From the IMG/VR virus record IMGVR_UViG_3300031576_000032, positions 1-64,000 of that record: 64,000 nt of DNA; one strand, written 5' to 3'. Both the position numbers and the translations under genes were made by a program. Each line of letters opens with the position of its first letter. The first letter of the stretch is position 1. Shown piece by piece: positions 4,165-56,862 of the stretch. Under the pieces are notes generated by a model. The model had not been told where the DNA came from and searched no databases. It saw only the letters and a list, made by a program, of their open reading frames with translations. The DNA is from a virus.

Positions 4165-4251
4165 CAAACCTCCGATCTACAAATTCCCAACCCCTGGAAC
4201 GGGGGAGTCAGGGTAAATCCATTGGGTACTTTCCCGTTCCTCCAAGTTCGT

Positions 4252-5310: not shown

Positions 5311-5379
5311 GATTTATCCTCCACGCGACCCGGCCCACGTTCGAGAGAATTCCCGCGTCGCGGCCGATCGACCCCCCGG

Positions 5380-5408
5380 ATTATAACCGACGAGACCCCT
5401 TTTGTAAA
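5380..5408 (-). promoter_or_regulatory. Leftward sigma-70-type promoter P1
   Basis: On the minus strand the -35 is TTTACA (5403-5408) and the -10 is TATAAT (5380-5385), a perfect match, with a 17-bp spacer. It lies between the nuclease gene and the DUF932 gene, which it should drive. Confidence 0.85.
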
Positions 5409-5414
5409 CCTCAG

Positions 5415-8981: not shown

Positions 8982-9865
8982 CGCGTCGCCTTGTCCTTCC
9001 GGAACACGAGGATCGTCTGGTACAGCGGCGGCTTCTTCCCCGTCTTCTTCTCGTACGTGTTGAGGAACATCGTCGTTGGGTAATGTCTCAAGATCGCCGT
9101 TCCCTCGTGCGTAAGCCCGAGTTCGGTTAGGAGATCCCCGATCTTCACGTGAAGAAGAAACGGCTCGCCCTTACGCATCATATCCTTGACAGAGACGACG
9201 AACCGGCCGTTCTTCTTCATCCGGGCGATGCACTTCTGGTAAATGTCTCGGATCGCGGCCCAGTACGCGTCGTTCTCCCGAAGGAGGCCGAGGTTCGCAT
9301 ACCGTTTGTCGTACCTCATCTCCTTCGGTTGTTTCTTCATATCTTTTTCGGCATATCCGAAGAAGCTCTCTCGGACGTCCCCTGAGTACGGCGGGTTGTT
9401 GACGACGAGCGAGAACCGAGGAAGATCCGCGATCACCGACTCGATCTCTCGGGCGTCTCGGTGAACGACCCGGAACTTCGCGCCATTCGAGACCGCGGCG
9501 GCGCGGGCGAGGTTCGCTTCGACGACGTCGAAGAACTCGATCTCACACCCCGCCGCGTTCCGGCCCATCCGGAGCGCCTCGACGGGAGTCGTTCCCGCCC
9601 CGACCATCGGATCGAGGACCCAGTCGTTCTTTTTCGTAAACGTCTGGATCGCCCACCGAGCGACATGGAGCGGCGTCTTCGCCGGATGCTTCTTTTCGAT
9701 CGGATCGTAAAACGATTTCCTCTCGAGCCGGGAGTAGTTCCGTCCGTCAGGACGAATCAGCTCCCCGAGAAACGGCTTCGAGTATTTGCTAACGCCGACG
9801 TAGTCCGTCGGCATATTCGGTCCGGCGTTCAATAACTGGACCGGTTCGATCTCGTTCTTGTCCAT
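8978..9865 (-). CDS. DNA amino-methyltransferase (N6-adenine or N4-cytosine)
   Basis: A 295-residue SAM-dependent methyltransferase. Motif I is VLDPMVGAGTT (near residue 82), followed by an acidic residue in GCEIEFFD, and the catalytic motif is NNPPYSG (near 156), in the order seen in the gamma/zeta classes. NPPY favours N6-adenine, while the DPMVGAGTT element resembles the N4/N6 family (PF01555). No partner nuclease is adjacent, so it probably protects phage DNA from restriction. ATGA overlap with the next gene. Confidence 0.85.
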   Translation of the reverse strand: MDKNEIEPVQLLNAGPNMPTDYVGVSKYSKPFLGELIRPDGRNYSRLERKSFYDPIEKKHPAKTPLHVARWAIQTFTKKNDWVLDPMVGAGTTPVEALRMGRNAAGCEIEFFDVVEANLARAAAVSNGAKFRVVHRDAREIESVIADLPRFSLVVNNPPYSGDVRESFFGYAEKDMKKQPKEMRYDKRYANLGLLRENDAYWAAIRDIYQKCIARMKKNGRFVVSVKDMMRKGEPFLLHVKIGDLLTELGLTHEGTAILRHYPTTMFLNTYEKKTGKKPPLYQTILVFRKDKATR

Positions 9866-9877
9866 CCGCTCCCTCCC

Positions 9878-11398
9878 TTAAAAGTTCGACAACACCTTTC
9901 CCGACGGGACCGACGGGACCGACGGGACCGACGGAACGATCGGCGCGGGTTTCACATCTCTCGGCTTCGGTTGTGGTTTCTTCGGTTCAGCCGGAACTGG
10001 CGGAGTCTCCAGGGGGACCTTTCTCGGTCGTCCCCGGCCGCGCTTAGGAATCGACTGGAACTCCGCGACGGACACCGCGGCGCGTTCGACCTTCGGCCTC
10101 CGTTCTTTCTTCGGCTTAGGCGGTTTGTACGTCGGATCGATCGCGTTATCCCAACGCGTCAAGTCCTCGGGTTCGACTCTCATCGGCAGGTGGCACCGAA
10201 ATAGCATCGTGCACTCTTCGCACGCTTTCGGTTGATTCGAGTACCCGACGTTTTCGCAGTACCACTGTTTCGCGTCGTCGACATATCGGTCGGGCGGCAA
10301 AAATCGATGTCCCGACGACTCGAACTTCACACCGTTGATATGAGCGGCGATCTGTTTTGCGATGTACGCGTTGAACTGGACGGGCATCGCTTTCCCCGTC
10401 TGCTTTACGATCGTCGCATCTTTCGTGTGGTTCCATTCGCCTTTCTCGTTCAGGATCGTCCCGTAGAAGATGAAGTCGTCGGGGAACCCCTGGATTCTCG
10501 CGCGCTCGCGGATCGTATACGGAAGGCACCGCTCCCCGTGGATCGCCGGAGCGCCCCCGGTTAGGACCGCCGCGTGCCCGTCCCAGTGATTCCGGTATGT
10601 CCCGATCCGTTTCTTGTAGGACCCGTCTGCCGTCTGGTACGGAAGGACCGTCCCGGGACGGCCGTCCTTAAAGAACTTCTGGACCTCGCGCCACGTCGCC
10701 TTCTCCCCGCGTTTCGAAAAATGCATCGCTCGGTCACATCGTCCATCGAGGACGTGAGGGTCATGATTCGGAATCGAATGGCTCCCCTTCTTTTGGGGAT
10801 CGGGGAGATCCCCGATAAGAGTCTGGACCGTTTCCTTGTTGTCATACTCCCCGGGCCGAAACGCGAACTTCTCCTTCTTCAGCGCCCCGATCAGGAAGAA
10901 CCGCTTTCGAAACCGTTGGACGTTTCCGTAATGAAAGTTCGACACCCACTCAGGGAACAGATCGTACTCCGGAAGAAGCGACGCATACTTCTCCATCGAG
11001 AACGCGATGAACGATTTCGGAAGATCGTCCATCACGAAAAACCTCGGCTTCACCCGCGCGACGAGATCGACGAACAAAGGAATGTCCCCGGGGTCGTCGC
11101 CACGGTTCGAATTCATTCCATCGAGTTGCGAAAAGTTCCCGCACTCTGGGTGTCCGAAAGCAACGTCGATCGTCGGTAACGCCGGGGCCTCCTCGATCGA
11201 ATGGACAAAGAACGCCCCCGGGAAGTTCTCAAGAAACGTATTCTTCCCGTCCTTGTCTTTCTTGTGGTAGTACTTCCGCCACTCGATATTTCCGAGGACC
11301 TCGAAACCCCCCATCCGCGCTCCGACTAACATTGAACCGATCCCGCACGTTAACCCAACCGCCTTCAACTTCTCAATACTCGGCGGTTTCCTCGGCAT
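9878..11398 (-). CDS. C5-cytosine DNA methyltransferase-like protein with AT-hook tail
   Basis: 506 residues. The N-terminal 350 contain C5-methyltransferase motifs: I (GLTCGIGSM), IV (GHPECGNFS, Cys86), VIII (VQRFRKRFFLIG), IX/X (ERARIQGFPDDF, GKAMPVQFNAYIA). The motif VI ENV is replaced by DDL (124-126), which is unusual because that Glu stabilises the flipped cytosine. The tail holds four cysteines (YC...ACEEC...RC), an AT-hook (RGRGRPRK) and a C-terminal VPS repeat encoded by near-identical gaccgacgg units. It may methylate or otherwise modify cytosine; the DDL change makes the exact activity uncertain. Confidence 0.85.
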   Translation of the reverse strand: MPRKPPSIEKLKAVGLTCGIGSMLVGARMGGFEVLGNIEWRKYYHKKDKDGKNTFLENFPGAFFVHSIEEAPALPTIDVAFGHPECGNFSQLDGMNSNRGDDPGDIPLFVDLVARVKPRFFVMDDLPKSFIAFSMEKYASLLPEYDLFPEWVSNFHYGNVQRFRKRFFLIGALKKEKFAFRPGEYDNKETVQTLIGDLPDPQKKGSHSIPNHDPHVLDGRCDRAMHFSKRGEKATWREVQKFFKDGRPGTVLPYQTADGSYKKRIGTYRNHWDGHAAVLTGGAPAIHGERCLPYTIRERARIQGFPDDFIFYGTILNEKGEWNHTKDATIVKQTGKAMPVQFNAYIAKQIAAHINGVKFESSGHRFLPPDRYVDDAKQWYCENVGYSNQPKACEECTMLFRCHLPMRVEPEDLTRWDNAIDPTYKPPKPKKERRPKVERAAVSVAEFQSIPKRGRGRPRKVPLETPPVPAEPKKPQPKPRDVKPAPIVPSVPSVPSVPSGKVLSNF

Positions 11399-12042
11399 TA
11401 GTACTCGCTCCGTTGCCGGAACCTATTGACTTCGGACTTCTTGAAGTACAACTCGAACACGGCATCCGCAGACATCCCGACGGTCCAAGACAGAAGACCA
11501 AGTCGCCCGACTGACTGGACGACGAGATCCTCAAACTTGTCTACGTCGGTTGAAACGTGCGACTGTTTCCACGGTTTATTCTTCAAGCAGTTCATCGCGA
11601 GGCCGAGGGTTTCGACGACCTTCCACGCAGAAAACATCACGACCGTTTCGCTATCCAACCCGGTATTTTTCCCCGGAATAATGATATCGAGACGATCTTT
11701 TCCGAGGTTATCGTCGACAACGTCGGCCGGGCCGAGTCCGATCTCGATCACGAGTTCGACGAGAAAATGCCAGGCGTCGGCGACTTCCTCCTTACAGTGG
11801 ACGGGATCAGCCATCGACTCAATCGCTTCGGCGAGTTCCTCAGTTACTCGCCAGGCCAGATCTTTCAGGAAGTATTGGCATTTCGGGTCGTCGATATGAA
11901 ACGTCGCGGGTAGAATCCCCCGACCGATCCCGGCTTTTCCCTCGATCTCGCTGTACTTCTTCGACAATTCCCGCTGCCGGTCGAAAATCATCTCGAGCCG
12001 GTCGCCTGTCGGCTCGGGGGCGGTCGCGTCGTTCACGTTCAT
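11398..12042 (-). CDS. All-alpha dCTPase/dUTPase (MazG-like NTP pyrophosphohydrolase)
   Basis: 214 residues with the helical NTP-pyrophosphatase signature of dimeric dUTPase/dCTPase proteins: FDRQRELSKKY, then EELAEAIE and KEEVADAWHFLVEL (EExxE...ExxD metal site). It hydrolyses dUTP and possibly dCTP to monophosphates, supplying dUMP/dCMP to the deaminase and the ThyA-fold enzyme and keeping unwanted bases out of phage DNA. The ATG at 12042 overlaps the asparagine synthetase stop (ATGA); its TAA overlaps the methyltransferase ATG (TAATG). Confidence 0.8.
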   Translation of the reverse strand: MNVNDATAPEPTGDRLEMIFDRQRELSKKYSEIEGKAGIGRGILPATFHIDDPKCQYFLKDLAWRVTEELAEAIESMADPVHCKEEVADAWHFLVELVIEIGLGPADVVDDNLGKDRLDIIIPGKNTGLDSETVVMFSAWKVVETLGLAMNCLKNKPWKQSHVSTDVDKFEDLVVQSVGRLGLLSWTVGMSADAVFELYFKKSEVNRFRQRSEY

Positions 12043-13406
12043 GTCGCGTAGGCCTTTCTGAAGGCGTCGATACACGCCATTCGCCACTCGATCTTCTTCT
12101 CCCCCCTGGACCCTTCGATCTTCAGGGGAACCTTCTCACGATGTAGAATAGAAAGTGGAACGATGTCCGCGAACGCTTCCTTCAATACTTCTTTGTGTTT
12201 CCTGCGTTCCCACGGGAGCGCGAGCGCGTAGTTCACGATCGGAAGGGCGAGGAACGGGCACCGGAGTTCGACCATCGAGAACATCATCGTCCGGTCAAGC
12301 CGGGGGAGGTGGTAGTGGATCAACTCGTGAAACACGTCGGACTTTTGCGAGTCATACTCGGCCGTGCGACGGTATCCTCCGAACAACTCGTCGGCCCCGT
12401 CCCCGGAAAGGACGACGTCAACCCCGGATTCTCGAACGGCCTTTCCTAGGTCGATTTGGGCCATCACCGAGCCGAGATCGACGGGGCACTGGTGGATTTG
12501 AACCGCGACTTCTTTTTCGATCTCGACTGGTCGGTTGATCGCGATCATCTCGATTTCGCTTCCGGGGAACCGAAAGTCCAGATGTTTTAGGAAGTCGGCT
12601 TCGTCGTTCTCAACATGAAAGACTTTGAAGTCGGTCCGGACCTTCTTCATCATCTCGAAAACGATCGTTGAGTCGAGTCCGCCGGAAAGAAGAACCCCGA
12701 CCGGAACATCCGACACCATTCGATTTCGGACAGACTCCTCGACGGCCGCACGAAGGTCCGTTCCAGTTGGGTATAACCCAAGTCCATACTGGTACGATTC
12801 CTTAAGCCGTCCGAACTCATCGTAGACTAGGATCGATCCAGGCGCAATCGAATGGATCTCGTTCCAGGGAGTCGACCGATCGTAACAATATCCGAACCGC
12901 GCGACCCCGCCGAGGTACGTTTCGTTCAACGTCGACGGCCCGGCCTCGAGCAAAGGATCGATCTCGGACGATATCGCAAGCGCCGGAAGCGTTCGGTAGT
13001 AAAGCGGCTTCTTCGCGAGCGGATCGGTCACGACCGTAACGGTCTTCTTCGACGTGTCAATGAATACAAACGACCAGAACCCGTCGAACCCGGCAAGACA
13101 TTTCGGTCCAAACTTCTCCCACATCGCGAGGACGACGGCGAGGTCGTTCTTCGCCGCCGGGTCATACTTTCGGAAGTTGAACACTTCCCCGACCATCAAC
13201 CCATACAGGTTCTTCGTACCGTGACGCATCGGCTGGTCGAACGTCTCGCTCAGCCCTTGAATCGGGAGCCGGGCGTGCGAGACGTATACGAGACCCGGTT
13301 GGAAGAACCTCGCGGTCGTCGTCCGTTTCCCCCGGTGCTCCAACTTTGCGGCCATCCTTTCGATGACGGATTTGTCTTTCCCAAAATAGACGTTAATCCC
13401 GCACAT
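12039..13406 (-). CDS. asnB: Asparagine synthetase-like glutamine amidotransferase
   Basis: 455 residues with the class II amidotransferase/synthetase plan of AsnB. Cys2 is exposed after Met removal (MCGIN); RLPIQGLS and GEVFNFRKY match glutaminase-site regions; the synthetase domain has LLSGGLDST (ATP pyrophosphatase loop) and LSGDGADELFGGY. It is shorter than bacterial AsnB (about 550). It could make asparagine, or transfer ammonia to an activated carboxylate on a base or other small molecule. Its place inside the nucleotide/base-modification operon (14-bp overlap with the kinase, ATGA with the dCTPase) makes a specialised role plausible. Confidence 0.85.
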   Translation of the reverse strand: MCGINVYFGKDKSVIERMAAKLEHRGKRTTTARFFQPGLVYVSHARLPIQGLSETFDQPMRHGTKNLYGLMVGEVFNFRKYDPAAKNDLAVVLAMWEKFGPKCLAGFDGFWSFVFIDTSKKTVTVVTDPLAKKPLYYRTLPALAISSEIDPLLEAGPSTLNETYLGGVARFGYCYDRSTPWNEIHSIAPGSILVYDEFGRLKESYQYGLGLYPTGTDLRAAVEESVRNRMVSDVPVGVLLSGGLDSTIVFEMMKKVRTDFKVFHVENDEADFLKHLDFRFPGSEIEMIAINRPVEIEKEVAVQIHQCPVDLGSVMAQIDLGKAVRESGVDVVLSGDGADELFGGYRRTAEYDSQKSDVFHELIHYHLPRLDRTMMFSMVELRCPFLALPIVNYALALPWERRKHKEVLKEAFADIVPLSILHREKVPLKIEGSRGEKKIEWRMACIDAFRKAYAT

Positions 13407-42406: not shown

Positions 42407-44476
42407 TTGTCTTGGGGTAGCGCCGGATCAATCGGTGTCGGGAATAGCAAGGCGTCGGGGACGACCCTTGTCCTGACGACGACCGCGACGGCCGAGGCCG
42501 GGAACGTCGTGTTCCTGGTCATCGCTTCGGACAACGTCGCGACGGCCGACGGGAATACATCCGAAGTTTCCTCGATCGCCGATTCCGCAGGCGGGAACAC
42601 GTGGACGAAGGCGCGCGAGTTCTGTAACGCGCAGGGTGCCGCGAACGCCGGGACGACTCTCTCGTTCTGGTACTCGAAACTTGTCAACCAGATCGCCAGC
42701 GGCGGGACGATCACTGTCACGTTCGCGAACACGATCACGGCGAAGGCGATTTCGGCTCAAGAGTTCACCATGGCCTCGGGGTCGCTGATCAGTATTGTTG
42801 ACGCGGCGGATCTACCGAACGACGTTCTAGACGTTGGGTCGATGACGACTGCGACGCTCCCGTCAAACGAGTATCTGTTCTTCCGGGCGATTGCTGGCGA
42901 GACGACGACGGCGATCGCATTCACGCCGACGACGAACTTCACGGAAGTCACGCGTGGCCAGATGACGGGCGGGCTCCCGGCATCGAATCAGTCAGCGTTC
43001 GGCGAGTTCCGGATCGTCACCTCGACGGCGCAGACGAGCAATCCGACGACGATCATTGGGGACTACGCGTCGTCGTTTGTTGTGTTCAAGGAACTCGTCG
43101 TCCAGAATCTTTCCGGCGCGAGTGGGATCGCGACTGGCGAGGCAGTCGGCGCGGAGAAGGTCAACCATTCGCTCCCGTCTGGCGGCGGGATCGCATCGGC
43201 GTTTGCGGTTGGCATTGCTACAATTTCGCTTGGGGTCTCGTTGGTTGGTGGTCTCGCGAGCGCGGAGGCATTCGGATCGGCGTCGGTCAAACGCTTGCTT
43301 TCTGTGGCTGGCGGAATCGTTTCGGCTGAATTGTTCGGGGCCGGGTCGCTCGGCGGATTCCTTGTTAGCGCTGGCGGGATCGCGTCGGGCGAGGCGTTCA
43401 GTGTCGTGGCCGTTGGAAAGGTGCCGACGTTCGTTGCGGCTGGGTCGGTCGCCTCGTCGAGCAGCGGCGGGAACGTCTTCCCGAGCCTTCCGGCTGGGTT
43501 TGCGGCTGGGCACTATCACGTTTGCGTCGTCGGGAAAAACGCAACGACGAACGCGCCGACTATGTTTTCGCCGGATTGGGATGTTCTCCTACCCCATACG
43601 ATCGTATCAGGAGCCGGAGGCACGATCGCGCTCTCGATCTTCGGGCGCAGGGCGCAGGCCGGGGACGTCGTGCCGACGGTGTTCTACGCTGGGACAAATG
43701 CAATCATCGCGAGGATCGCCGGGTACCATGGCGTTGCCCTCGCGGCTACGATCGCAGCCGAGGTCGTCGGCACTCCGCAGGGGAACGCGAGTGTTGATAC
43801 GACTCTGACGTGTCCGCCGATCGTGACTTTGACGGACTTCGATCGCGTCCTGCTTGTCGGAGCGGCAGCGAACGGCGGGAACTTCACTGGATACTCCGGA
43901 GTACCGCCGCCGGTAGAGAGAATTGATTCTGGGATCGGTGCCCAGGCGGCAATCGTAGTCGCCGATTTTTTTAAGACGCCTGCTGGTAGCACGAGCGCGC
44001 AAGACTCCACGATAACGATTCCGCCCCTCGGGAACGCGCGGATCGGCGTACAGATCGCGCTTCGTCCGCCGACGAACGTGGCGACTTCGGGCGCTGGTGG
44101 AATTGGGTCATCGGAGGCGTTCGGCGTCGCGTCGATCGGTATCAGGGCGCCCGGTGCCGGTGCAATCGCGACCGGAGAGGCGCTCGGAGTTGCATCGGTC
44201 AAGACGAGACTCAACGACGCCGGTGGAATCGTATCGGCCGAAGCGTTCGGGTCGGCTAGCGTGAATGGGACGCTCGGCCCATCATCGATTCTATCCGCCG
44301 AGGTGTTTGGTGTTGCAAGTATTTCGCAACGGGGGTTTAATGTTGGTGGAATTGAATCGGCTGAAGTGTTCGGAAAACCACTAATCTATGTTGGACCACT
44401 AGTTGCACCGGTTGAGCGAAGTGAAATTGTTCGTGGGGAAAATCGGTTTATCCCAGTTATTGACGGGTCTATCTAA
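42407..44476 (+). CDS. Virion appendage protein with GGIxSAEAFG repeats
   Basis: 689 residues from a TTG directly after the upstream stop. The N-terminal 230 residues form a beta domain (TLVLTTTATAEAGNVVFLV, a concanavalin/Ig-like layout), then about five repeats of the form GGIxSAEAFGxASV at roughly 22-residue spacing. A second beta domain follows (ATNAPTMFSPDW...), then about five more repeats. Such repeats are known from phage tail or head-fibre proteins. Likely surface-exposed receptor or carbohydrate-binding fibre. Confidence 0.7.
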   Translation: MSWGSAGSIGVGNSKASGTTLVLTTTATAEAGNVVFLVIASDNVATADGNTSEVSSIADSAGGNTWTKAREFCNAQGAANAGTTLSFWYSKLVNQIASGGTITVTFANTITAKAISAQEFTMASGSLISIVDAADLPNDVLDVGSMTTATLPSNEYLFFRAIAGETTTAIAFTPTTNFTEVTRGQMTGGLPASNQSAFGEFRIVTSTAQTSNPTTIIGDYASSFVVFKELVVQNLSGASGIATGEAVGAEKVNHSLPSGGGIASAFAVGIATISLGVSLVGGLASAEAFGSASVKRLLSVAGGIVSAELFGAGSLGGFLVSAGGIASGEAFSVVAVGKVPTFVAAGSVASSSSGGNVFPSLPAGFAAGHYHVCVVGKNATTNAPTMFSPDWDVLLPHTIVSGAGGTIALSIFGRRAQAGDVVPTVFYAGTNAIIARIAGYHGVALAATIAAEVVGTPQGNASVDTTLTCPPIVTLTDFDRVLLVGAAANGGNFTGYSGVPPPVERIDSGIGAQAAIVVADFFKTPAGSTSAQDSTITIPPLGNARIGVQIALRPPTNVATSGAGGIGSSEAFGVASIGIRAPGAGAIATGEALGVASVKTRLNDAGGIVSAEAFGSASVNGTLGPSSILSAEVFGVASISQRGFNVGGIESAEVFGKPLIYVGPLVAPVERSEIVRGENRFIPVIDGSI

Positions 44477-45534
44477 TGGCGATCACGACGGTTGTCTTTG
44501 GACCGAACGATCTGGATGGGGCCAACACGATCGTCTCAGGCGCAGCACCGCGAGTCGCGAGGACCGGCGGCGTCGGGAAGTTCTTCCCGACAGAGACAAA
44601 AGAGTACCGCTCGAACATCGCGGTCCCGGAGGACATTCTTGAGGCGTACCCGGCGTGGCATAATGAGGGTCCATCGATCGCGTACGTTGGCGTCGCATAC
44701 AAAGTGGGCGCAGTCGAGAAGCGTTGGCGGACAATGCTCCGGTTTATCCTTCGAGCCGTCACGATTGACCGATCGTCTATTGTTTCTGGCGTCGCGCCGG
44801 CGGTTTCGTCTTGGCAGTGGGTCGTTGGCGCGAGGTTAATATGGTACGCGGGCGATCCGGCGGCGAACGATCTCGATGCGGTCCCGATCACGATCAACGA
44901 GTCTGACCTAGAGATTCGTGTCGGGCGCGGACTGTACGATCTGGCTACGGTTCCGACGAAGGAGGGTCCGTTCGGATACCCAGCGCCAACCGGGACTGAA
45001 CACAAGGACGATCAACTTGCGGAGACATACGATGGTGCGCCAGTATTCGGCTCGGTTGAGGGAACTCTTGGATGGGGCTTGTGGGCGCTTCCAACGCGGA
45101 CCGAGAAAACGCTTGTCTTGTCCCAGTCCGCGATCGACGCGCTCCTTAAAACGATTTCGGGGGACGCCGATTCGTATATTGATTTCGGGTTCATCGCGCT
45201 TTCCGGAGAGGAAGCGGCCGTTGGGTCGACGAACGTTGTCAACTTTAAGCGGGAGATCGCTGCATGGGATCCACATCCACCGCGATTTGAAATCGACTTC
45301 AACCTTCCGGTAACGTTAAGTAGCGCTGGGACGATCGCGTCTACTGAAAGTATTGGGTCGGCAGTTGTAAATCATGGACTATCAGAATCGGGGGCGATCG
45401 GGTCCTTTGAGAATTTTGGTTCGGGGGTTGTCTTATCGGATAATTCGCACGTCGACCCCCGTCCGTCGAGAAAAGCTCGAGTAGCAAAAGACCTTAGGAT
45501 TACTCGGGTCAGAAGGAGGCGGACAATTGGCTGA
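44476..45534 (+). CDS. Second appendage protein with repeat remnant
   Basis: 352 residues, TAATG overlap. The N-terminal 270 residues resemble a beta-sandwich virion domain (WRTMLRFILRAVTIDRSSIV, LIWYAGDPAANDLD). Residues 285-325 hold two degenerate copies of the repeat of the previous gene (GTIASTESIGSAVV, GAIGSFENFGSGVV). The C-terminus is very basic (RKARVAKDLRITRVRRRR). Confidence 0.65.
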   Translation: MAITTVVFGPNDLDGANTIVSGAAPRVARTGGVGKFFPTETKEYRSNIAVPEDILEAYPAWHNEGPSIAYVGVAYKVGAVEKRWRTMLRFILRAVTIDRSSIVSGVAPAVSSWQWVVGARLIWYAGDPAANDLDAVPITINESDLEIRVGRGLYDLATVPTKEGPFGYPAPTGTEHKDDQLAETYDGAPVFGSVEGTLGWGLWALPTRTEKTLVLSQSAIDALLKTISGDADSYIDFGFIALSGEEAAVGSTNVVNFKREIAAWDPHPPRFEIDFNLPVTLSSAGTIASTESIGSAVVNHGLSESGAIGSFENFGSGVVLSDNSHVDPRPSRKARVAKDLRITRVRRRRTIG

Positions 45535-48281: not shown

Positions 48282-49292
48282 ATGGCTCGAAAGGGTGGTG
48301 GCGGTAAGGCGGTTCTCGCAGACGCGAAGGGACTGTTTAACGGTCCTGGCGGCGGGACGATGGTCAAGCAACTTCTTGCGAATGACATGGATTTCGACAA
48401 GATCCGTGTTAACACATCGACTCTCCGGTATGACGAGCAAAAGGAGCTTGACGAAAAGCTTCTTGAGATCTCTAGGTTTGAACTCGGCGCGGTCCCGGCG
48501 ATTCTTGCGGCGGGGCTTCGGTACGATTTCGATGGGATGTCGGCGACGATCCTTCAGTATGAGGATATGTCCGACATCACGGACGCCGAACTCGGGATGT
48601 CTCCGCTTGGTCGGGGGAAGACGGACAACCCCGAATTCACGCAGAAGATCCTGCCCCTCCCGTTCATGTTCAAGAACTTCTTCATCGATGCCCGGAAGCT
48701 TCGGATGTCGAGGAAGCTCGGCCAGCCTCTTGACACGACGGGCGTGGCGCTTGCGACTCGGAAGGTGATGGAACTCGCTGAAGACATCCTCGTCAACGGG
48801 TCGAGTGGATATCCGTTTGGTGGGGGGAATATCTACGGAATCATCGATCACCCGAACGTCAACGCGGTGTCGCTTGGGACGTCGTGGGCGACGGATACCG
48901 GAGAAAACGTCATTGCGGATGTTCTGTCGGCGATTCAGGCGTCGGTTAACGTGAAGCACGGGGGTCCGTTCGAGCTTTGGATTCCCAGGAACTTCCGATC
49001 GGCGATGTCGAAGGACTATTCGACTGCGAAGGGCGACAACACGATCCGGCAGAGGATCCTTGATATCGACGAGATCAAGGCGGTTCGTACAATCAACGCG
49101 ATGCCGTCGAGCAAGGTCGCGCTCGTCGAGATGCGCGAAGAGACGATCCGGATGGTGATGGGTCTTCAGCCGCGAGTCGTCGAATGGGACACCGAGGGCG
49201 GGCTCGGCCTTAACTTCAAGGTTCTCGGGATTATGGTTCCGCAAATTCGCGCGGACCAGGATGGGAACTGCGGGATCACGATCATCTCGTAA
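48282..49292 (+). CDS. Major capsid protein (HK97 fold)
   Basis: 336 residues. VMELAEDILVNGSS...NIYGIIDHPNVN, then ALVEMREETIRMVMGLQPRVVEW match capsid proteins of the encapsulin-like/DUF6260 type with the HK97 fold. Follows the decoration protein with its own ribosome site. Downstream hairpin (ggacccgg/ccgggtcc at about 49317-49341) could modulate expression of the distal genes. Confidence 0.88.
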   Translation: MARKGGGGKAVLADAKGLFNGPGGGTMVKQLLANDMDFDKIRVNTSTLRYDEQKELDEKLLEISRFELGAVPAILAAGLRYDFDGMSATILQYEDMSDITDAELGMSPLGRGKTDNPEFTQKILPLPFMFKNFFIDARKLRMSRKLGQPLDTTGVALATRKVMELAEDILVNGSSGYPFGGGNIYGIIDHPNVNAVSLGTSWATDTGENVIADVLSAIQASVNVKHGGPFELWIPRNFRSAMSKDYSTAKGDNTIRQRILDIDEIKAVRTINAMPSSKVALVEMREETIRMVMGLQPRVVEWDTEGGLGLNFKVLGIMVPQIRADQDGNCGITIIS

Positions 49293-49394: not shown

Positions 49395-49721
49395 ATGAGG
49401 CGAAAGGTCGATCCGATCCGGACGTGGAGGAAGAAGCCGGGGTTCGGTCCATACTTGTACAAGAAGGACGGCGAGCTCGTCGAGGTTAAGACTGGAGAGA
49501 CTCTTGAGTGTTCGAAGATGGCCCTCGGGACGTACGTTGAACGATTCGACCTCGCTGACGAGGACGAAACGGTCGAGGAGCCGTCGCGGTACGTGTCCGT
49601 TCCCCGGAAGGACGAGTCCGGGTTCGATGTCGTCGATCGCGAGACGGGTCGGCCAGTGAATGAAGCTCCGATGACCGAGGACGAAGCGAAGGAGTTTCTG
49701 GAGAAGTACGAGGAAGATTAG
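49395..49721 (+). CDS. Small acidic head-region protein
   Basis: 108 residues, MRRKVDPIRTWRKKPGFGPYL at the N-terminus, then acidic. May be a head-completion or regulatory protein; no family recognised. Two bases before the GTG of the next gene. Confidence 0.6.
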   Translation: MRRKVDPIRTWRKKPGFGPYLYKKDGELVEVKTGETLECSKMALGTYVERFDLADEDETVEEPSRYVSVPRKDESGFDVVDRETGRPVNEAPMTEDEAKEFLEKYEED

Positions 49722-49723
49722 TT

Positions 49724-50404
49724 GTGCCAGCGACGCGTCTCGAGAGAGTCCTTGGTCCGGGAGGGAAGCGAGCGACCCTCGTTTCGTCTCACAAGGCGTG
49801 GATCGTTCCGCGAATCTGGCCCGAGTCGACTGTCGCGATCCTCGGCGGGGGGCCGTCGCTTCCGTCGGCTGAGGATCTCAAGAAGATTCCGCTTTCATGG
49901 AAGACGATCGCGGTCAACATGGCGTTTCGGTCCGCGCCATTCTCTGACGTTTTGTTCTACGGAGATCCCCATTTCCCGTCGATCACTCGTGCGACGGACG
50001 GCCCGACGATCGACGATTTCGCGGGGCTCGTTGTCACGCGCGTCGCTCCGGGAGATGGGAGCGCGATGTTCGTCGCGTGGGAGTCGGGGATCGATGGGAT
50101 ATCGAAAGATCCGACGCGACTTCGATGGAACCGATCGAGCGGCGCGTGCGCGATCGGACTCGCGCGGCATTTCGGCGCGAAGAGGATTGTCCTTTTTGGG
50201 TTCGACATGCGAATCGTCGACGGGAGGAAGAACTTCCATTCGTGGTATGGACGCGATTTGAAGAATCCATTCGAACAAATGCTCGAACCGTTCGGCGCGA
50301 TTGAACGAGACCTTCACGAGGAACAGATCGAGTGCATTAACGCGACGCCGGGTTCTGCGATTCGATCACTCCCGATTGTTGACCCGGTGAGCCTCTTCGT
50401 ATGA
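49724..50404 (+). CDS. DUF115/MptE-like Rossmann protein of the glycosylation cassette
   Basis: 226 residues from a GTG. VAILGGGPSLPSAEDLKKI, TIAVNMAFRSAPFSDVLFYGDPHF and GACAIGLARHFGAKRIVLFGFDM match the DUF115 fold of motility-accessory-factor (flagellin nonulosonate transfer) proteins and MptE. In phages such proteins are annotated as putative sugar transferases. ATGA overlap with the next gene. Confidence 0.72.
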   Translation: MPATRLERVLGPGGKRATLVSSHKAWIVPRIWPESTVAILGGGPSLPSAEDLKKIPLSWKTIAVNMAFRSAPFSDVLFYGDPHFPSITRATDGPTIDDFAGLVVTRVAPGDGSAMFVAWESGIDGISKDPTRLRWNRSSGACAIGLARHFGAKRIVLFGFDMRIVDGRKNFHSWYGRDLKNPFEQMLEPFGAIERDLHEEQIECINATPGSAIRSLPIVDPVSLFV

Positions 50405-51057
50405 ACGTCGTCTGCGTCCTGAAATCGGGCGGGGACTATGACGTCGGCGACGTCGAGAACTTGTCCCGGCAGATCCGGAAGAACTTGGACGTCGGCGCGA
50501 TCTTCTGTTTGACCGACGTCCCGTTCGACATCTCAAGGTTCGAGAAGACGGGGATCGTTGTCGTGCGACTCAAATCAACGTGGCCCGGATGGTGGGCGAA
50601 GATGGAACTGTTTTCGATCCCCGGGCCGGTCCTTTACTTCGACCTCGACACGGTGATCGTTAGCGACCTTGCCCCCCTGGTGACGGCGATCGATGCGATT
50701 GGTCGCGACCGGATTTTAATGCTCCGGAACTTCTACGACCCGTCTCCGGGTTCCGGAATCATGGGATGGAACGGAGATTTCTCGTCGATGTTCCGGCAAT
50801 TTCAGGCTGCGGTCGAGACCGGGGACTTTTTGAAGCGGGGCGATCGGTGGACGTTTACTCACGACGGGAAAACGTACCCGGGGGATCAAAACTGGATCGC
50901 GGCGCGGCTTTCCGAGTCGAAGAGGGTCCCAGTGTTTGCCCAAGACGTAGTCGACGGGATCGTTAGCTACAAAGTCGGGTCTGTCGAAAAGAACGGGCTT
51001 CCTCCTGGAGCGCGGATCGTTGTGTTTCATGGGAAACCCCCCGGCCGTGGGAATTGA
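50401..51057 (+). CDS. Glycosyltransferase-like protein (GT-A fold, DLD)
   Basis: 218 residues. VVRLKSTWPGWWAKMELFSIPG then LYFDLDTVIV gives the DxD motif for nucleotide-sugar/metal binding; GSGIMGWNGD and DQNWIAARLSE are typical of GT8/GT32-like acceptor regions. Probably transfers a hexose. Part of the co-oriented cassette. Confidence 0.78.
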   Translation: MNVVCVLKSGGDYDVGDVENLSRQIRKNLDVGAIFCLTDVPFDISRFEKTGIVVVRLKSTWPGWWAKMELFSIPGPVLYFDLDTVIVSDLAPLVTAIDAIGRDRILMLRNFYDPSPGSGIMGWNGDFSSMFRQFQAAVETGDFLKRGDRWTFTHDGKTYPGDQNWIAARLSESKRVPVFAQDVVDGIVSYKVGSVEKNGLPPGARIVVFHGKPPGRGN

Positions 51058-51079
51058 ATCCGGTTCCAGTGTGGATAAC

Positions 51080-51874
51080 ATGACGCCGCTTTGGTTTTTC
51101 TGGGGTCAGAAGCGAATGTCGTTCTTGCGGTACATGACGCTCCGTAGCGCGTGCGATGTTCACGCCGATGTGCGGATTATTGTTCGCGATGAGGAGCTTC
51201 GGCCAGCCGTGAAGTGGGTAGAGTCTCAGGACTTCATGAACAATGACGATGGTGCCGACTGGATGGCGGAGGCGATGAAACTGCCAATCAGGGTCCACGA
51301 TCTCCGTGAGATCGCGCCCGTGCTATCCGACCTTCGGGCGCCAGACGTCCAGACGAGCGACCTGCTCGCTTGGTGGATCCTCGCGACGATCGGCGGAACG
51401 GTCTGCGATATGGACATCGTGTTCCTGAAGCCGCTCCCGGAGATTATCGAGAACGTTGAGGTCGCGCGTTGGGAGCGCGATGTCCACCGATATGATTACC
51501 TTCCGATCGGATACATTCAGGGTCGACCACACGACAAGTGGCGTGACGCGTATGCGAAGGCGCTTGCGGCATATGATCCGAACGTGTACCAGTCGTGCGG
51601 TGGCGAAAACCTCAAGCCGTGGCCGGAGGCCCGACTAAGCCCGTTCGTCGTGTACCCTTGGGCCGGGGCGGTCTACCGGCAGATCCTGGACTATTGCTTC
51701 AAGACGACTCACTGGCCGCCACTACCCGTCGCGTGCGTTGGGGTCCACTGGTACGGCGGTGCGTGGCAATCTGAGAACGCGCGGATCAACGGGCCGGACG
51801 ACCTTGAAGCGGGTGCCGTCTCGTGGGCGATCAAGACCGTCCTCGCCGGTTCAGAAGTGGTGGTGCCGCGATGA
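51080..51874 (+). CDS. GT32-like glycosyltransferase
   Basis: 264 residues from the ATG at 51080 (an in-frame GTG at 51071 or TTG at 51020 is possible). SDLLAWWILATIGGTVCDMDIVFLKPL is the DxD-containing core of GT32/Och1-like transferases. GC-style codons (GCG, CGC) differ from its left neighbour by eye. ATGA overlap downstream. Confidence 0.82.
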   Translation: MTPLWFFWGQKRMSFLRYMTLRSACDVHADVRIIVRDEELRPAVKWVESQDFMNNDDGADWMAEAMKLPIRVHDLREIAPVLSDLRAPDVQTSDLLAWWILATIGGTVCDMDIVFLKPLPEIIENVEVARWERDVHRYDYLPIGYIQGRPHDKWRDAYAKALAAYDPNVYQSCGGENLKPWPEARLSPFVVYPWAGAVYRQILDYCFKTTHWPPLPVACVGVHWYGGAWQSENARINGPDDLEAGAVSWAIKTVLAGSEVVVPR

Positions 51875-52653
51875 GAGTCTCCGTCGTTAACTTCTGCTCG
51901 ACGGCACTTGAGATGCTCAAGTTTTCCACCGAGTCGCTTCTTGAGAACGCGGGGACTGGCGATTTTGATTATCTCGTCGTGACGTGGAATCCCAGCCCAG
52001 AGGTCGAGGCTTGGCTCGATGCGCAGCCATCGATTTATCGCGCTCGGTACCAGACGGACAACTCGTTTGACTATGTTCCGAATCTCCGGAAGATGATGAG
52101 CTATGGGTTCAGCGAGGGCTATCAACTCAACGACTACGTCGTCATCGTGAACACGGACATGGCATTCGGCGAGTGTTGGCTTGAGAATCTCGCCCGCCGC
52201 GCCGATGAGGACGTGATTCCCAATTCGGTCCACGTTACTCCAGTCGAGTCACCGTTCGTCGTCGTCGCAAATTTCGGCATCCCGACGCGCGAGACGTTCG
52301 ATATGGCGCGCTGGGAAAAACTTCACGACAAGCTCCTCACTTCGGCAAAGAATGATGCCATCGCGCGTGGTTTGGACATGGTCCAGACACCCGAGGATCG
52401 TGGCGGCGACTGGCGGTCGTGTGCGACGATGCCGTATGTCCTTCATAGGAAATGGTGGGAGCGGTTCGGCCCCTGGGAACCGAACCTCGATGGGCAGAAG
52501 GAAGCACCAGATCGGAGGTTCTTTGGTCGATGCCACGACGGTGGGGCGAAGTTCGTTCTCTGCTTGGATTCGATCTGTTATCATCATGAAGCAGTAGAGC
52601 GACGCGGGTCGTGTCGGCCGATCGGGGTCGAGTCGATGAAAGCGGGGTTGTAG
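51871..52653 (+). CDS. Family 2-like glycosyltransferase
   Basis: 260 residues. RVSVVNFCSTALEMLKFSTES at the N-terminus and DYVVIVNTDMAFGECWLENLARRAD (the NTD acting as DxD) suggest GT2; PYVLHRKWWERFGPWE is the usual acceptor-side motif. Overlaps its neighbours by ATGA and TAGTG. Confidence 0.78.
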   Translation: MRVSVVNFCSTALEMLKFSTESLLENAGTGDFDYLVVTWNPSPEVEAWLDAQPSIYRARYQTDNSFDYVPNLRKMMSYGFSEGYQLNDYVVIVNTDMAFGECWLENLARRADEDVIPNSVHVTPVESPFVVVANFGIPTRETFDMARWEKLHDKLLTSAKNDAIARGLDMVQTPEDRGGDWRSCATMPYVLHRKWWERFGPWEPNLDGQKEAPDRRFFGRCHDGGAKFVLCLDSICYHHEAVERRGSCRPIGVESMKAGL

Positions 52654-53315
52654 TGGACTGGGGAACGGCGGAGATGGAATCGTTTTGGTCGAAGATGCAT
52701 TCTCGGAACGACGGACCCGCGCTTACGGGATCTTCACTCGTGAGCGTTCGTGATACCCCCGGGCTTGGTACTGTTCCAATTCCGGGAATCCATATGTTGG
52801 AGATCGGGGTCGGGCTCGGTCGGGCCACGAAGGAGATTCATGACCTTGGAGTCGTCGTCGATACGCTTGATATCTGCAATGAAGCGCTCGACCGAGTCGT
52901 CGACTTTACGCGGGCTCGATATCTTCATCGGGACATCGAGAATCTTTCCGTCGATGAATATGATCTCGCGGTGTCGCTCCTCGTCACGCAGCATATGAGC
53001 GATCGTGATATCCTTTGGCAGTTCCCCCGCGTGTTCCGGTCCTTGAACCAAAAGGGCCGATTCGTCGTTCAGTGGGCGGGGTCGCGAATTGACGGGGAAA
53101 ACGACAATCACGGGACGGTCCTCGGGGAATACGGTCCGGTTGATGGGATCACTCCGGTCGGGATGATCTCGGGCCGTATGGTTAGGAGCGAATCGCATGC
53201 GACTTCCCTGATCGAGCGGTCAGGGGGAAAGGTGCTCGAGATCCGGGGCCGCCGCGAGTTTCCAGAGTTTAAGTCGTGCTGGTTCGTAACCGAATGTAGG
53301 AAAGTTGATGGCTAG
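52653..53315 (+). CDS. SAM-dependent methyltransferase
   Basis: 220 residues from a GTG in TAGTG. MLEIGVGLGRATKEIH is motif I of class I methyltransferases; VVDTLDICNEAL and VSLLVTQHMSD are the next motifs. Within a sugar cassette it probably O- or N-methylates a sugar, as in nucleotide-linked glycan pathways. Confidence 0.75.
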   Translation: MDWGTAEMESFWSKMHSRNDGPALTGSSLVSVRDTPGLGTVPIPGIHMLEIGVGLGRATKEIHDLGVVVDTLDICNEALDRVVDFTRARYLHRDIENLSVDEYDLAVSLLVTQHMSDRDILWQFPRVFRSLNQKGRFVVQWAGSRIDGENDNHGTVLGEYGPVDGITPVGMISGRMVRSESHATSLIERSGGKVLEIRGRREFPEFKSCWFVTECRKVDG

Positions 53316-54033
53316 GGCGACTCTCTTGATCGTGGCGCGGAATCGCGCCCAGCAGTTCGCAGTCGCTATGTTGACGATCTGGAATCGGAAGTATAAGGAC
53401 ATCGACATCCTCGTCGTTGATGATGGATCTTTTGACGACACGCCGAGGATCACTAGGGATTTTAGCGACGTGATCACCAGGTACCATCGGATCGATCGAC
53501 CAGGGGGGTATCGTCGGAATCCAGCGGAGGTCCTTAATATCGGGCACGCGCTTTCTGAGACGGACGTTGTGATCGAGCAGGGAGCCGAAGTCTGTCATCT
53601 TACGGACTGCGTTACTCCTTTACTTGAGGGGTGTTCGTCTGGGACCGTCGTCCTAGCAAGAGTCTACAATGGACGAACGGAAGACCTCGACCGAGTGGAG
53701 TCGGCGCTACGGGCCGGAAAACTTCTTCCGTCGGTCCGGGATCATGTTCCTTCAAGTGTTCGAACGGATGGCGACCGGTGGCCCGTTCCTCGAGTCGACG
53801 TGCACGCGACCAGCGGGATCGGGGTCGATCTTTATTGTGGGGAGGAAAGAGCCGTTCCGTTCCTGTTTCTTGGGGCGAGCCATGGGGACGATTTCTCCGC
53901 GGTCGGCGGGTATGACGAGAAGCTTTCTGGCCGGAACGATGAGGACCTTGCGAACCGGCTTCTCGGCCGTGGCGTCCGGTTCGTCTTCTCGAACCAAGCG
54001 ATCGCGTTTCATCTTCTTCATGGAAAGTCTTAG
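53308..54033 (+). CDS. Family 2 glycosyltransferase
   Basis: 241 residues from the ATG at 53308. ATLLIVARNRAQQFAVAML, DIDILVVDDGSFDDTPRI is a textbook GT2 N-terminus, and LFLGASHGDDFSAVGGYDEKLSGRNDEDL is the acceptor-side ED motif (NDED). Likely inverting transferase using a nucleotide sugar. Confidence 0.85.
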   Translation: MARATLLIVARNRAQQFAVAMLTIWNRKYKDIDILVVDDGSFDDTPRITRDFSDVITRYHRIDRPGGYRRNPAEVLNIGHALSETDVVIEQGAEVCHLTDCVTPLLEGCSSGTVVLARVYNGRTEDLDRVESALRAGKLLPSVRDHVPSSVRTDGDRWPVPRVDVHATSGIGVDLYCGEERAVPFLFLGASHGDDFSAVGGYDEKLSGRNDEDLANRLLGRGVRFVFSNQAIAFHLLHGKS

Positions 54034-54035
54034 CG

Positions 54036-54320
54036 ATGGTTGAACCGGTATACGACTTCATTTGCTCGATCGGGGAGCTGATCGACAAGCTTTCGATTGA
54101 GAACATCAAGTGTTATGATGCGAACACAAGAGCGATTGCTGAAAGGAAGAAGACTGACCCGAGTGCGACGGTGATCGCCGATTGTGAAGGACAGGCCCGA
54201 TCGTCGGGGGAACAGCGGGTCCGGCTTAAGAACGAAATAAATAGGCGACTCGCCGAAGCTATTGAGCGTGGTAAGATAAGGCACGCGGCGGAGACGCGGA
54301 CATATCGGAGGGAATCGTAA
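54036..54320 (+). CDS. Small DUF4254-like protein of the cassette
   Basis: 94 residues. DFICSIGELIDKLSIENIKCYDAN is the helical phrase of DUF4254/glycan-operon proteins, and RLKNEINRRLAEAIERG ends it. DUF4254 proteins often sit beside glycosyltransferases. Function unknown. Confidence 0.65.
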   Translation: MVEPVYDFICSIGELIDKLSIENIKCYDANTRAIAERKKTDPSATVIADCEGQARSSGEQRVRLKNEINRRLAEAIERGKIRHAAETRTYRRES

Positions 54321-54328
54321 GGAGACCG

Positions 54329-55309
54329 ATGGTTGAGATTGTTAAAGATGCGGTTCATCGAATCGAGTCTTACTCGGTCGCTGGCTTGTTCCCCGCGAAA
54401 CTCCTTCAGGGGGAGACTCTCCGTAAAGGCCGGATCGTCCCTCGGCACGTCCAGATTTATCTTACGAACGCGTGCAATCTCGATTGCTCGTTCTGCTCGT
54501 GTGCGGACCGGAAACTTACGGAGCGGATTCCCCCCGACGAGATCGAGAAAATCCTTCCGATGCTCGCGAGCTTGGGGACGGAGGCGATTACGCTGTCGGG
54601 CGGCGGAGAACCGTCGCTTCATCCGGCGTTCAATCGCGTAATCGACCTCGCGCATGCGCACGGGATACGGGTTGGACTCGTCAGCCACGGGGGGCTTCTT
54701 TGGAAGCGGCTCGAGTCAAAGAACTTGACGTGGGCACGAATCTCACGATCCGATGTGATGGACCAGTCTGGGGATTACTTCTCGAACCTGTCCGGCGTTG
54801 TTCGGAAGTTCTCGAATACGGACTGGGCGTTTAGCTATGTTCTGATGTCCGAACCGATCTGGGATAAGATGCGTGAAGCCGTTCGGTTCGCTGGGGAGCA
54901 TGGATTCAAACACGTTCGGATCGTGTCGGATCTCCTCGACCTTCCTAACGTTCCGTCTATGGACGAGGTGAAGTTCCAACTCGCGGGCGTCCCCGGAGAA
55001 GAGATCGTCATCTACCAGGGAAGGAAAGGATACACGGTCGGGCGGGAGAAGTGTCTGATCAGTCTCTTGAAGCCGGTGATCGCGGCAGACGGTCGGTTGT
55101 TCCCTTGCTGCGGGGCGCAGTACGCGCTCCCTGAGTCGAAACGAGACACCGTCGATGAAATGTGTATGGGCCGATGGGAAGACATGCCGCGGATTTGGGG
55201 AGATCAGGCAAACTTCAACGGATCGGCGTGCGTCCGTTGTTACTATGATGGCTACAATCAGGCGCTTGACTATATGACGATGCCTCTTGCGCATAAGGAG
55301 TTCGTCTAG
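54329..55309 (+). CDS. Radical SAM/SPASM enzyme
   Basis: 326 residues. CNLDCSFC (Cys49, 53, 56) binds the [4Fe-4S] cluster; LSGGGEPSLHP is the SAM-binding GGE-type motif. The C-terminus has FPCCGAQYA and CVRCYYDGYN, a twitch/SPASM-like auxiliary cluster site. Such enzymes modify peptides, sugars or bases through radical chemistry. Substrate unknown; it ends the cassette and overlaps the first connector gene by one base. Confidence 0.85.
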   Translation: MVEIVKDAVHRIESYSVAGLFPAKLLQGETLRKGRIVPRHVQIYLTNACNLDCSFCSCADRKLTERIPPDEIEKILPMLASLGTEAITLSGGGEPSLHPAFNRVIDLAHAHGIRVGLVSHGGLLWKRLESKNLTWARISRSDVMDQSGDYFSNLSGVVRKFSNTDWAFSYVLMSEPIWDKMREAVRFAGEHGFKHVRIVSDLLDLPNVPSMDEVKFQLAGVPGEEIVIYQGRKGYTVGREKCLISLLKPVIAADGRLFPCCGAQYALPESKRDTVDEMCMGRWEDMPRIWGDQANFNGSACVRCYYDGYNQALDYMTMPLAHKEFV

Positions 55310-55680
55310 TGGCTCGTGTTAGTAACGATTTCGTCAAATCCTTGATCGATACGGGACTTACAGAAGATCAAGTAACTCCTTTTCTTCTGACAGCAAGTAT
55401 CGTCGTGACCGAGAATATGATTACGCTTCCGGATGGGACTTCGACAGGGTACTCGGAAGACCGACTTGCGATGATTGAAGCGTGGCTCGCGGCGCATTAC
55501 ATCTCCGTTCGTGATTCTCGGGTAAGGGAAGAAACGACGGGGGCGATTGGGGGCGGCGCAACAAGCGCGACGTATGACGTCCTTCGGTACTTCGACCAGG
55601 CGAAGATGCTCGATCCCCTTGGTATCCTTTCGGCGATCGCGAAAACGAAAGGGTCGGCCGAGGTGTGGACGATCGCGTGA
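55309..55680 (+). CDS. Head-tail connector (adaptor) protein
   Basis: 123 residues from a GTG. Helical, SEDRLAMIEAWLAAHYI and TYDVLRYFDQAKMLDPLG as in gp6-like/DUF4054 adaptors at the portal exit. Followed by the stopper gene (GTGA overlap). Confidence 0.75.
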   Translation: MARVSNDFVKSLIDTGLTEDQVTPFLLTASIVVTENMITLPDGTSTGYSEDRLAMIEAWLAAHYISVRDSRVREETTGAIGGGATSATYDVLRYFDQAKMLDPLGILSAIAKTKGSAEVWTIA

Positions 55681-56057
55681 GTCACGGCCGGTCAACGCGA
55701 TTCATAGCGACACTCCGGGAGAAAGCGGTATACTGGGGGTCGCCGGTCATGACGGGGTCGGGCGGGACGACATACGCGGACCCGGTCGAGGTGAAGTGTC
55801 TTTGGGAGGACGCGATGCAACTCGTCGACGATATGAAGGGTCGGGAGGTCCAGTCGTCTTCGACCGTGTACGTCGACCGGGCGCTTGTCCCTGAGGGGCA
55901 GATCGTCAAGGGCCGTCTTCGCGACTTCACGGACGAGCAAAAGGCCGATCCTCTTGGGGCTGCCTGGCCGGTTGCGCTTAGGCCGAAGAAGGTCATCAAG
56001 GCGGGGTCGTACCCCTGGCTTCATGGGCCGGGGACGGTGAACCAAGTATGGCTCTAA
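55677..56057 (+). CDS. Head-tail stopper-like protein
   Basis: 126 residues from a GTG overlapping the upstream stop. Beta-rich (VYWGSPVMTGSGGTTYADPVEVKCLWED...) like phage head closure proteins. Position between adaptor and gp10-like gene fits. Confidence 0.7.
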   Translation: MSHGRSTRFIATLREKAVYWGSPVMTGSGGTTYADPVEVKCLWEDAMQLVDDMKGREVQSSSTVYVDRALVPEGQIVKGRLRDFTDEQKADPLGAAWPVALRPKKVIKAGSYPWLHGPGTVNQVWL

Positions 56058-56479
56058 AGGGCGGGTCACGCGGGCCGGTCAATCCGGTCAGCATTGAGGA
56101 GATGCTTCAGAACCTTCGTCGGGAAGTTCATTGGATCAAGGAGGCGTCCGAAAATGCCCTTGACGTTGTTGTTCATAAGATCGGGGTCCGAAGCCAGGAA
56201 CTCGTTCCTGTTGCGACGGGACATCTTAAGTCGACGTTCGGGACTCGGACGTTCCGAAACCGGCAGAATGAAGTCACGGTTATTTTGTATTACACCGCTG
56301 ACTACGCTTTGTGGGTCCATGAGATCAACGCCCATCACGCTTCGCCGACGCAGTGGAAGTATCTTCAGACTGCGATCGACGAGTACCGTGGGGAGATAAT
56401 GCAAGACCTTGCCGCGTCGGTCAGGGCGAACCGTTCGGGGGCGGGGATCGCAGGGGCGGTCGTCGGAGCCGGAGTTTGA
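56048..56479 (+). CDS. HK97 gp10-like tail/neck protein
   Basis: 143 residues. VRSQELVPVATGHLKSTFGTR and YYTADYALWVHEINAHH match the HK97 gp10 family (tail completion). Co-oriented, 10-base overlap with the previous gene. Confidence 0.8.
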   Translation: MALKGGSRGPVNPVSIEEMLQNLRREVHWIKEASENALDVVVHKIGVRSQELVPVATGHLKSTFGTRTFRNRQNEVTVILYYTADYALWVHEINAHHASPTQWKYLQTAIDEYRGEIMQDLAASVRANRSGAGIAGAVVGAGV

Positions 56480-56862
56480 ACGCGGTCAGCGAGGACGTTA
56501 CGACGATCCTCGATGCCGTGTCGCCGCTCGTGTTCGGCGAGGACCTTTTCTTCGGCCGGCAGCCGACGTCTCCGGACAAATGCCTTTTCGTTAGTTCGTC
56601 GGGGGGCGTTTCTCCAGAGACGCAGTTCAATTGGCAGCGACCGACGTTTCAGATTCTTGCTCGTGGGGACCGGGGGGACTACAAATCGGCTGTCGACATT
56701 TTGAACGTTGCCCGGGCCGCGCTTCATGCGATCACTAACATGGCCGTCGGGTCGACGCGGTATATTGGGATCTATGTTCGCGGGGACATGATCGATCTCG
56801 CCCACGACGAGGAAGATCGCCCGCTCGTTGCTTTGAATTTTCAGGCCCACAGGACAGGATAG
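56476..56862 (+). CDS. Tail terminator/completion protein
   Basis: 128 residues from a TTG overlapping the upstream TGA (TTGA). VTTILDAVSPLVFGEDLFFGRQP...GDYKSAVDILNVARAALHAI resembles minor tail or terminator proteins before the tail tube. Start codon chosen by the coupling. Confidence 0.7.
   Translation: MNAVSEDVTTILDAVSPLVFGEDLFFGRQPTSPDKCLFVSSSGGVSPETQFNWQRPTFQILARGDRGDYKSAVDILNVARAALHAITNMAVGSTRYIGIYVRGDMIDLAHDEEDRPLVALNFQAHRTG

Follow-up and report, generated by a model that had tools for sequence, protein, structure and literature searches.

A variable island of putative glycan-building genes, in some versions with a radical SAM enzyme, occupies a fixed slot behind the capsid gene of uncultured phages

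Among the described systems that come closest to the one discussed here, that of the mycobacteriophages places glycans on the subunits of capsid and tail tube (Freeman et al., 2023, Cell Host Microbe, as reported in PMC12619734 and PMC10955285). Flagellin can be glycosylated in the cytoplasm in a Maf-dependent way (PMC4065374), and in the islands concerned, such as that of Geobacillus (PMC5109656), the glycosylation genes serve one abundant assembled protein. Finally, the host recognition cluster of pelagimyophages, a hypervariable region, combines glycosyltransferases with radical S-adenosylmethionine (SAM) cassettes (PMC7029224). The present locus is a cassette of eight genes at positions 49724-55309 of a stretch of viral DNA of 64,000 nucleotides, henceforth the window (bases 1-64000 of IMG/VR virus record IMGVR_UViG_3300031576_000032, whose full length is 70,187 bases). 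It shares phage-encoded glycosyltransferases with the mycobacteriophages, but islands of its kind, known from their genes alone, comprise several genes at a fixed site: the first is GT42/MptE-like, and the others include methyl- and sulfotransferase-like ones and one for a radical SAM enzyme. In contrast to the Maf islands, whose cytoplasmic modification of an abundant assembled protein it may share, the cassette sits in a viral capsid locus, and no pathway to nonulosonic acids was seen in the window. The pelagimyophage cluster lies in the tail-fibre region of a myophage and not between major capsid protein (MCP) and adaptor genes, and our search gave only a partial match, at 37.5%, to HTVC008M. 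Phage virion glycosylation is therefore not new in itself; what seems not to have been described before is the variant in which a hypervariable island, with a radical SAM payload, keeps to a fixed slot. In the open-access literature (subscription papers lay outside the scope) we found no description of such an island between MCP and adaptor, nor of this radical SAM family, and the pelagimyophage report was the only one found on radical SAM enzymes with phage glycans, or on MptE-like phage proteins.

We think it probable, from comparison of sequences, that the cassette encodes a modular cytoplasmic pathway by which a virion protein receives a decorated glycan, and that it is one version of an island kept at a fixed site in a large family of tailed phages. 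As an earlier sequence-only reading had it, eight co-oriented genes lie between capsid and connector genes: all are on the plus strand, free of internal stops, and overlap or almost abut, between g108, a head-module gene of 108 amino acids (aa), on the left and an adaptor gene on the right. Their base composition is that of the flanking head genes. The slot and its content are as follows.

48282..49292, plus strand: MCP, left anchor of the slot; 34% identity to the annotated MCPs of Brevundimonas phages MaInes and StAshley, 35-43% to MCPs of island-bearing viral contigs
49395..49721, plus strand: g108, a small protein of the head module, conserved, encoded between MCP and island; a profile of 48 relatives matches the window protein at 3e-23 and that of empty site L093 at 7e-25
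49724..50404, plus strand: G1, GT42/MptE-like sugar transferase, candidate initiating transferase; PHROG 'alpha-2,3-sialyltransferase' 6e-23, PF01973/MptE-like 1.3e-5 (below the curated cut-off)
50401..51057, plus strand: G2, GT8-like transferase with an invariant DLD in the alignment; PHROG glycosyltransferase phrog_1962 1.7e-28
51080..51874, plus strand (open reading frame from 51020): G3, GT32-like (DXD) transferase; PF04488 DXD region 0.001, weak and below cut-off; cluster of 11 loci
51871..52653, plus strand (open reading frame from 51823): G4, GT2-like transferase; hhalign to a GT2 cluster 88%; 19-44% identity to 6 relatives
52611..53315, plus strand: G5, class I SAM-dependent methyltransferase; PF13649 / PF08241 1e-6
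53305..54033, plus strand: G6, GT2 glycosyltransferase; PF00535 1.3e-9
54036..54320, plus strand: G7, small DUF4254-like protein directly upstream of G8; PF14063 3e-4, weak and below cut-off; 63% identity to the L020 homologue
54329..55309, plus strand: G8, radical SAM enzyme; PF04055 1.7e-13, core CX3CX2C (C49, C53, C56)
55309..55680, plus strand: adp1, head-tail adaptor-like, right anchor of the slot; cluster 7, whose profile matches the gene two after MCP in MaInes at 9e-29

With the likely starts at 51080 and 51871, G3 and G4 meet in an ATGA-type overlap. G1, G2 and G6 are clear phage-encoded glycosyltransferases, G3 and G4 weak ones: a Pfam search with G4 gave no match, its likeness to GT2 coming from profile comparison alone. 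The nearest PDB relative of the G2 profile is a glycogenin-type GT8, also weak (E about 0.003-0.01). A search of NCBIfam assigned none of the eight genes a specific function. The families proposed earlier hold, save for the 'SPASM' label of G8, which carries a four-cysteine Twitch half-motif instead, and they support the idea of a glycan-building cassette within the head-tail module.

The site was compared across relatives. These were retrieved with an MCP profile alone, independently of the cassette, after a scan of viral contigs with the single MCP sequence had found none; 80 of 352 were kept, and their open reading frames were called and labelled by cluster profiles. Collapsing the MCP genes at 90% nucleotide identity left 33 loci with both MCP and adaptor, and since the profile was built from the window and radical SAM-bearing loci, the sampled capsid family may be enriched in islands. 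The slot is occupied by a putative glycan island of 1.6-9.6 kb in 31 of the 33, and in 29 of these 31 G1 lies within the first three genes, as the first recognised island gene; G2 is present in 22 occupied slots, a sulfotransferase-like gene in 26 and a radical SAM gene in 4. When loci found through radical SAM or G1 queries are added, which biases the count upward, 53 of 55 slots are occupied, 49 with G1 and 13 with radical SAM. The two empty sites keep only g108 (L093) or nothing (L098). In the cultured Brevundimonas phage MaInes the site is also empty (MCP, one 120-aa gene, then the adaptor), as it presumably is in StAshley, judging from the MCP match and the lack of G1 or radical SAM matches. 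The cassette is not a lone insertion but one state of a widespread variable slot. Because the same arrangement recurs in independent assemblies, chance and misassembly are ruled out. As the capsid family conserves both the slot and its first gene, we read the island best as building a glycan on a virion protein, and the earlier suggestion to that effect comes out strengthened, as far as sequence can tell.

Behind the first gene the content changes. Islands draw upon GT8-, GT2- and GT32-like transferases, methyltransferases, sugar enzymes such as a hexapeptide transferase, transketolase halves, an SDR and a zinc dehydrogenase, and sulfotransferase-like and radical SAM genes. The closest cassette of the window type, L020, retains six of the eight genes in the same slot (G1, G2, G3, G4, G7 and the radical SAM gene). 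Three loci with MCPs 94-96% identical (L023, L024 and L029) nevertheless differ in the stretch from the radical SAM gene to the glycosyltransferase that follows; two others, with MCPs 85% identical (L169 and L202), have 11 and 4 island genes; and where MCP identity is 50-60%, the median share of island genes held in common is 25%. By this comparison island modules are exchanged between phages. Such variability, together with the few relatives that lack an island, might suggest neutral cargo in a hotspot for morons, with no role in the virion. This is the least probable of the explanations that we weighed, and a very improbable one: 31 of 33 slots are occupied, with the same first gene in 29, and the frames stay intact at 30-45% identity with invariant motifs. 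The survey did not show relatives keeping only broken fragments of these genes, an outcome that the sequence-only reading had envisaged.

By analogy only, the variable island resembles bacterial O-antigen loci. We would go one step further, tentatively, with a proposal that may well prove too broad: in this capsid family, the glycan locus next to the capsid gene would vary in the manner of a serotype, keeping its initiating transferase and exchanging its payload, and in about 1 in 8 of these phages the glycan would contain a sugar that comes from a radical SAM family centred on viruses and not described before. If this is true, the particles of many uncultured phages are covered by glycans of elaborate chemistry, exchangeable in the way that bacteria vary their O-antigens, with a bearing on the binding of phages to hosts and surfaces, on their persistence and on their recognition by predators or immune systems; and radical chemistry would enter viral glycan synthesis. 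The conserved first gene could serve both as a marker in the search for these phages and as a single knock-out target.

How might the pathway operate? The island enzymes, soluble and presumably made late with the virion proteins, would act in the host cytoplasm. G1 (GT42/MptE-like, of the CMP-sugar type) would begin the chain on a virion protein, or extend it; G2, G3, G4 and G6 may then attach further sugars, and G5 may methylate the chain, while G8, perhaps with its small partner G7, would oxidise, epimerise or deoxygenate a sugar or sugar nucleotide. This order of steps is conjectural. A glycan would be the product and a changed particle surface its purpose; the acceptor might be the capsid, g108 or the decoration protein, the Ser/Thr content of the candidates giving no pointer. 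An acceptor that is present in the cytoplasm and synthesised together with these enzymes is favoured by the position behind MCP in nearly all the relatives sampled, by the lack of any sign of an internal transcription boundary in the cassette in a scan of promoter- and terminator-like sites (the former close to the shuffled mean; the latter below it, with no excess over chance), and by the scarcity of membrane proteins. Cytoplasmic protein glycosylation requires few of them, and a strongly hydrophobic segment occurs in only 7 of the 404 proteins of the islands, none of these being among the eight of the cassette, where a Gtr-type flippase or polyprenyl-linked transfer would call for one. Neither flippase, nor polymerase, nor polyprenyl-phosphate transferase was recognised among the 404 island genes.

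This same scarcity bears on the view that the island alters the surface of the host cell (its O-antigen or capsule), so as to exclude superinfection or to change the receptor. Glycosyltransferases of other phages do remodel the host surface, and cellular relatives of the radical SAM enzyme are found in surface-polysaccharide loci. Remodelling has been proposed for pelagimyophages, the carriers of the cluster described above (PMC7029224). Here, however, hardly any membrane protein accompanies the 404 genes, the location is that of a head module, and the conserved first gene stands immediately behind the capsid genes, so that we hold host surface remodelling to be rather unlikely.

The AlphaFold model of G1 (pLDDT 89.6) has CstII, a GT42 sialyltransferase, as top Foldseek match (E 3e-5, TM 0.41-0.46), followed by other sialyltransferases. 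CstII is its best match by profile too (E about 0.01, 14% identity): the match takes in a start motif, G-x-GPSL, and an Asn that is conserved, and H172 of G1 would be the equivalent of the catalytic His188. As the TM scores are only about 0.45, we call G1 GT42/MptE-like, and not a sialyltransferase. We also take the Maf transferase to be related to PF01973, as G1 is. Nonulosonic-acid genes would be expected were G1 sialyltransferase-like; the recurrent island genes that were tested proved instead to be those for a zinc dehydrogenase, a split transketolase, an SDR, a hexapeptide transferase and a methyltransferase.

Relatives of G1 are numerous, with at least 500 candidate stretches in viral contigs. 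In the loci of the 80 that were kept for analysis, MCP or g108 is found at most three genes upstream in 42 of 69 that could be judged. Distant homologues extend to cultured phages: one follows MCP in a D3-like Pseudomonas phage, in Caulobacter phage CcrBL9 another has a tail protein gene in front of it and methyltransferase and GT9 genes behind it, and a third belongs to the hdm/pmg region of P1 and P7, annotated as head morphogenesis. The question can thus be tested now, in Caulobacter phages (CcrBL9 and CcrColossus), D3-like Pseudomonas phages and P1, where G1 homologues adjoin virion genes. Deletions of pmgN, pmgO and pmgP of P1 are listed as non-essential, though knock-down made pmgN look essential (PMC10695390). 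We also observed that in the late region of phage P7 (L221, 5856-8553; pmgN-pmgP in P1) the distant G1 homologue HdmB and the MptE-like HdmC adjoin a serine/threonine protein phosphatase.

The radical SAM enzyme had been singled out as unusual for such pathways, and this view is borne out. Twitch is the first half of the SPASM motif, and binds one auxiliary cluster. At its C-terminus G8 shows C242-X12-G-X4-C260 ... C301-X2-C304, and this pattern, CX12GX4C ... CX2C, is invariant, with the core CX3CX2C, in six aligned sequences. The seven-cysteine SPASM motif is CX9-15GX4C-gap-CX2CX5CX3C-gap-C (PMC6231123), of which G8 has only C242, C260, C301 and C304 (plus C261), residue 310 being Asn. None of the curated NCBIfam radical SAM families is reached (best score 43.5 bits against a cut-off of 380). 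A scan with the family profile found 40 viral contigs at 32-47% identity, and a scan of 84,980 species genomes six long relatives at 31-40%, both counts being lower bounds because the scans use short peptide patterns. On sequence grounds, G8 is a member of an unnamed, mainly viral family of the Twitch type. Three of the six cellular relatives (L044, L045, L047) belong to loci for O-antigen or polysaccharide, whose genes include Wzm/Wzt-type, Wzy, Wzz, glycosyltransferase and DegT genes; another, L046, looks viral to us from its neighbour genes. The family is also found in structural modules of other phage lineages, and in a few of 32 sampled records a radical SAM gene lies outside the MCP slot. 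In one such lineage (L026, L034, L035) it is flanked by tail-terminator-like genes and by major-tail-like ones, which makes a second slot of the virion module, and is accompanied by GT32-like and GT2 genes in two of the three. In L005, L006, L007 and L016, amid other neck and tail genes, a DUF4254-like gene (about 170 aa) comes immediately upstream, forming a conserved pair; a weak profile link connects G7 to its product.

An AlphaFold model of G8 built from six sequences (pLDDT 80) is closest in Foldseek to DesII, then to SkfB, BlsE and SuiB, with matches also to SpeY and BtrN. DesII, BlsE, SpeY and BtrN, which act on sugars or cyclitols, have in common with G8 the radical SAM core and a C-terminal auxiliary-cluster domain, and differ from it by an identity of just 14-18%. 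Function is hard to predict within this group of enzymes (PMC6231123), and the sugar-acting role predicted for G8 derives from context more than from structure. SkfB and SuiB being peptide maturases, and a small protein preceding the radical SAM gene both in the window and in L005-L007 and L016, one might see in G7 and G8 a peptide-modifying pair akin to those of ribosomally synthesised and post-translationally modified peptides, with G7 as substrate and no relation to the glycosyltransferases. Against this, the 326-aa G8 lacks an N-terminal recognition domain, its radical SAM core beginning near residue 40; G7 is missing from most radical SAM loci and, unlike a leader plus core, is conserved over its full length; and glycosyltransferases are constant neighbours. 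We find such a pair very unlikely.

Several facts sit uneasily with a glycan on a virion protein, the presence of those maturases among the G8 matches being one. The assignments of G3, G4 and G7 are weak, the likeness of G1 to CstII is modest, and PF01973 includes pterin enzymes as well. No sugar-nucleotide pathway was recognised in the window, so that donors must come from the host. Finally, the window has a gene of the thymidylate-synthase family:

8253-8981, minus strand: thymidylate-synthase-family protein, possibly a dCMP hydroxymethylase; PF00303 3e-16, PHROG thymidylate synthase 4e-28

From this gene comes the idea, already raised by the sequence-only reading, that the transferases glycosylate phage DNA: its product would hydroxymethylate a base, and the island would add sugars that shield the DNA from restriction. 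By our own reading of the motif RSCDFMKFFASD, Asp apparently replaces the dUMP-binding Asn of thymidylate synthase, hence a possible dCMP hydroxymethylase and modified DNA; a dCMP deaminase and two DNA methyltransferases adjoin the gene. Virus-encoded glycosyltransferases that hypermodify DNA do exist (Pyle, 2024, as cited in PMC12619734). For the phage of the window this explanation stays open because of that gene and its Asp, yet it is weakened by the rest and we consider it unlikely: PF00303 genes occur in only 3 of the 32 sampled records (which are fragments); the island belongs to the virion module, 40 kb away from the base-metabolism genes; and its GT42-like and sulfotransferase-like members, with the G8 relatives of polysaccharide loci, point to saccharide or protein acceptors. 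Matches to TET/JBP were found in 0 of 33 records, a negative that is uninformative, the control search having been silent as well. In the same region (8978-13406, minus strand) we note two consecutive DNA methyltransferases; a pyrophosphohydrolase that overlaps and a protein of the asparagine-synthase-like kind (12039-13406, phrog_16728) come next.

The virion module, of the tailed-phage kind, fills the right half of the window, in the following order.

38805: terminase
40309: portal
45896: protease
47759: decoration protein
48282: MCP
49395: g108
55309-56862: adaptors and neck
56881: major tail protein
58057: tape measure, followed by tail-tip genes

By our reading, these tail-tip genes resemble those of alphaproteobacterial gene transfer agents. 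Between portal and protease, two adjacent proteins (42407-45534, plus strand) contain GGIxSAExFGxASV repeats, in 6 and 2 copies; a scan of the fetched loci for this pattern found no frame with at least 4 copies. In L003, two tandem tail-tip or host-specificity-like proteins of 799 and 1312 aa (2620-5019 and 5046-8984; 62619-68983 of the record) are alike in their N- and C-terminal parts, as if duplicated.

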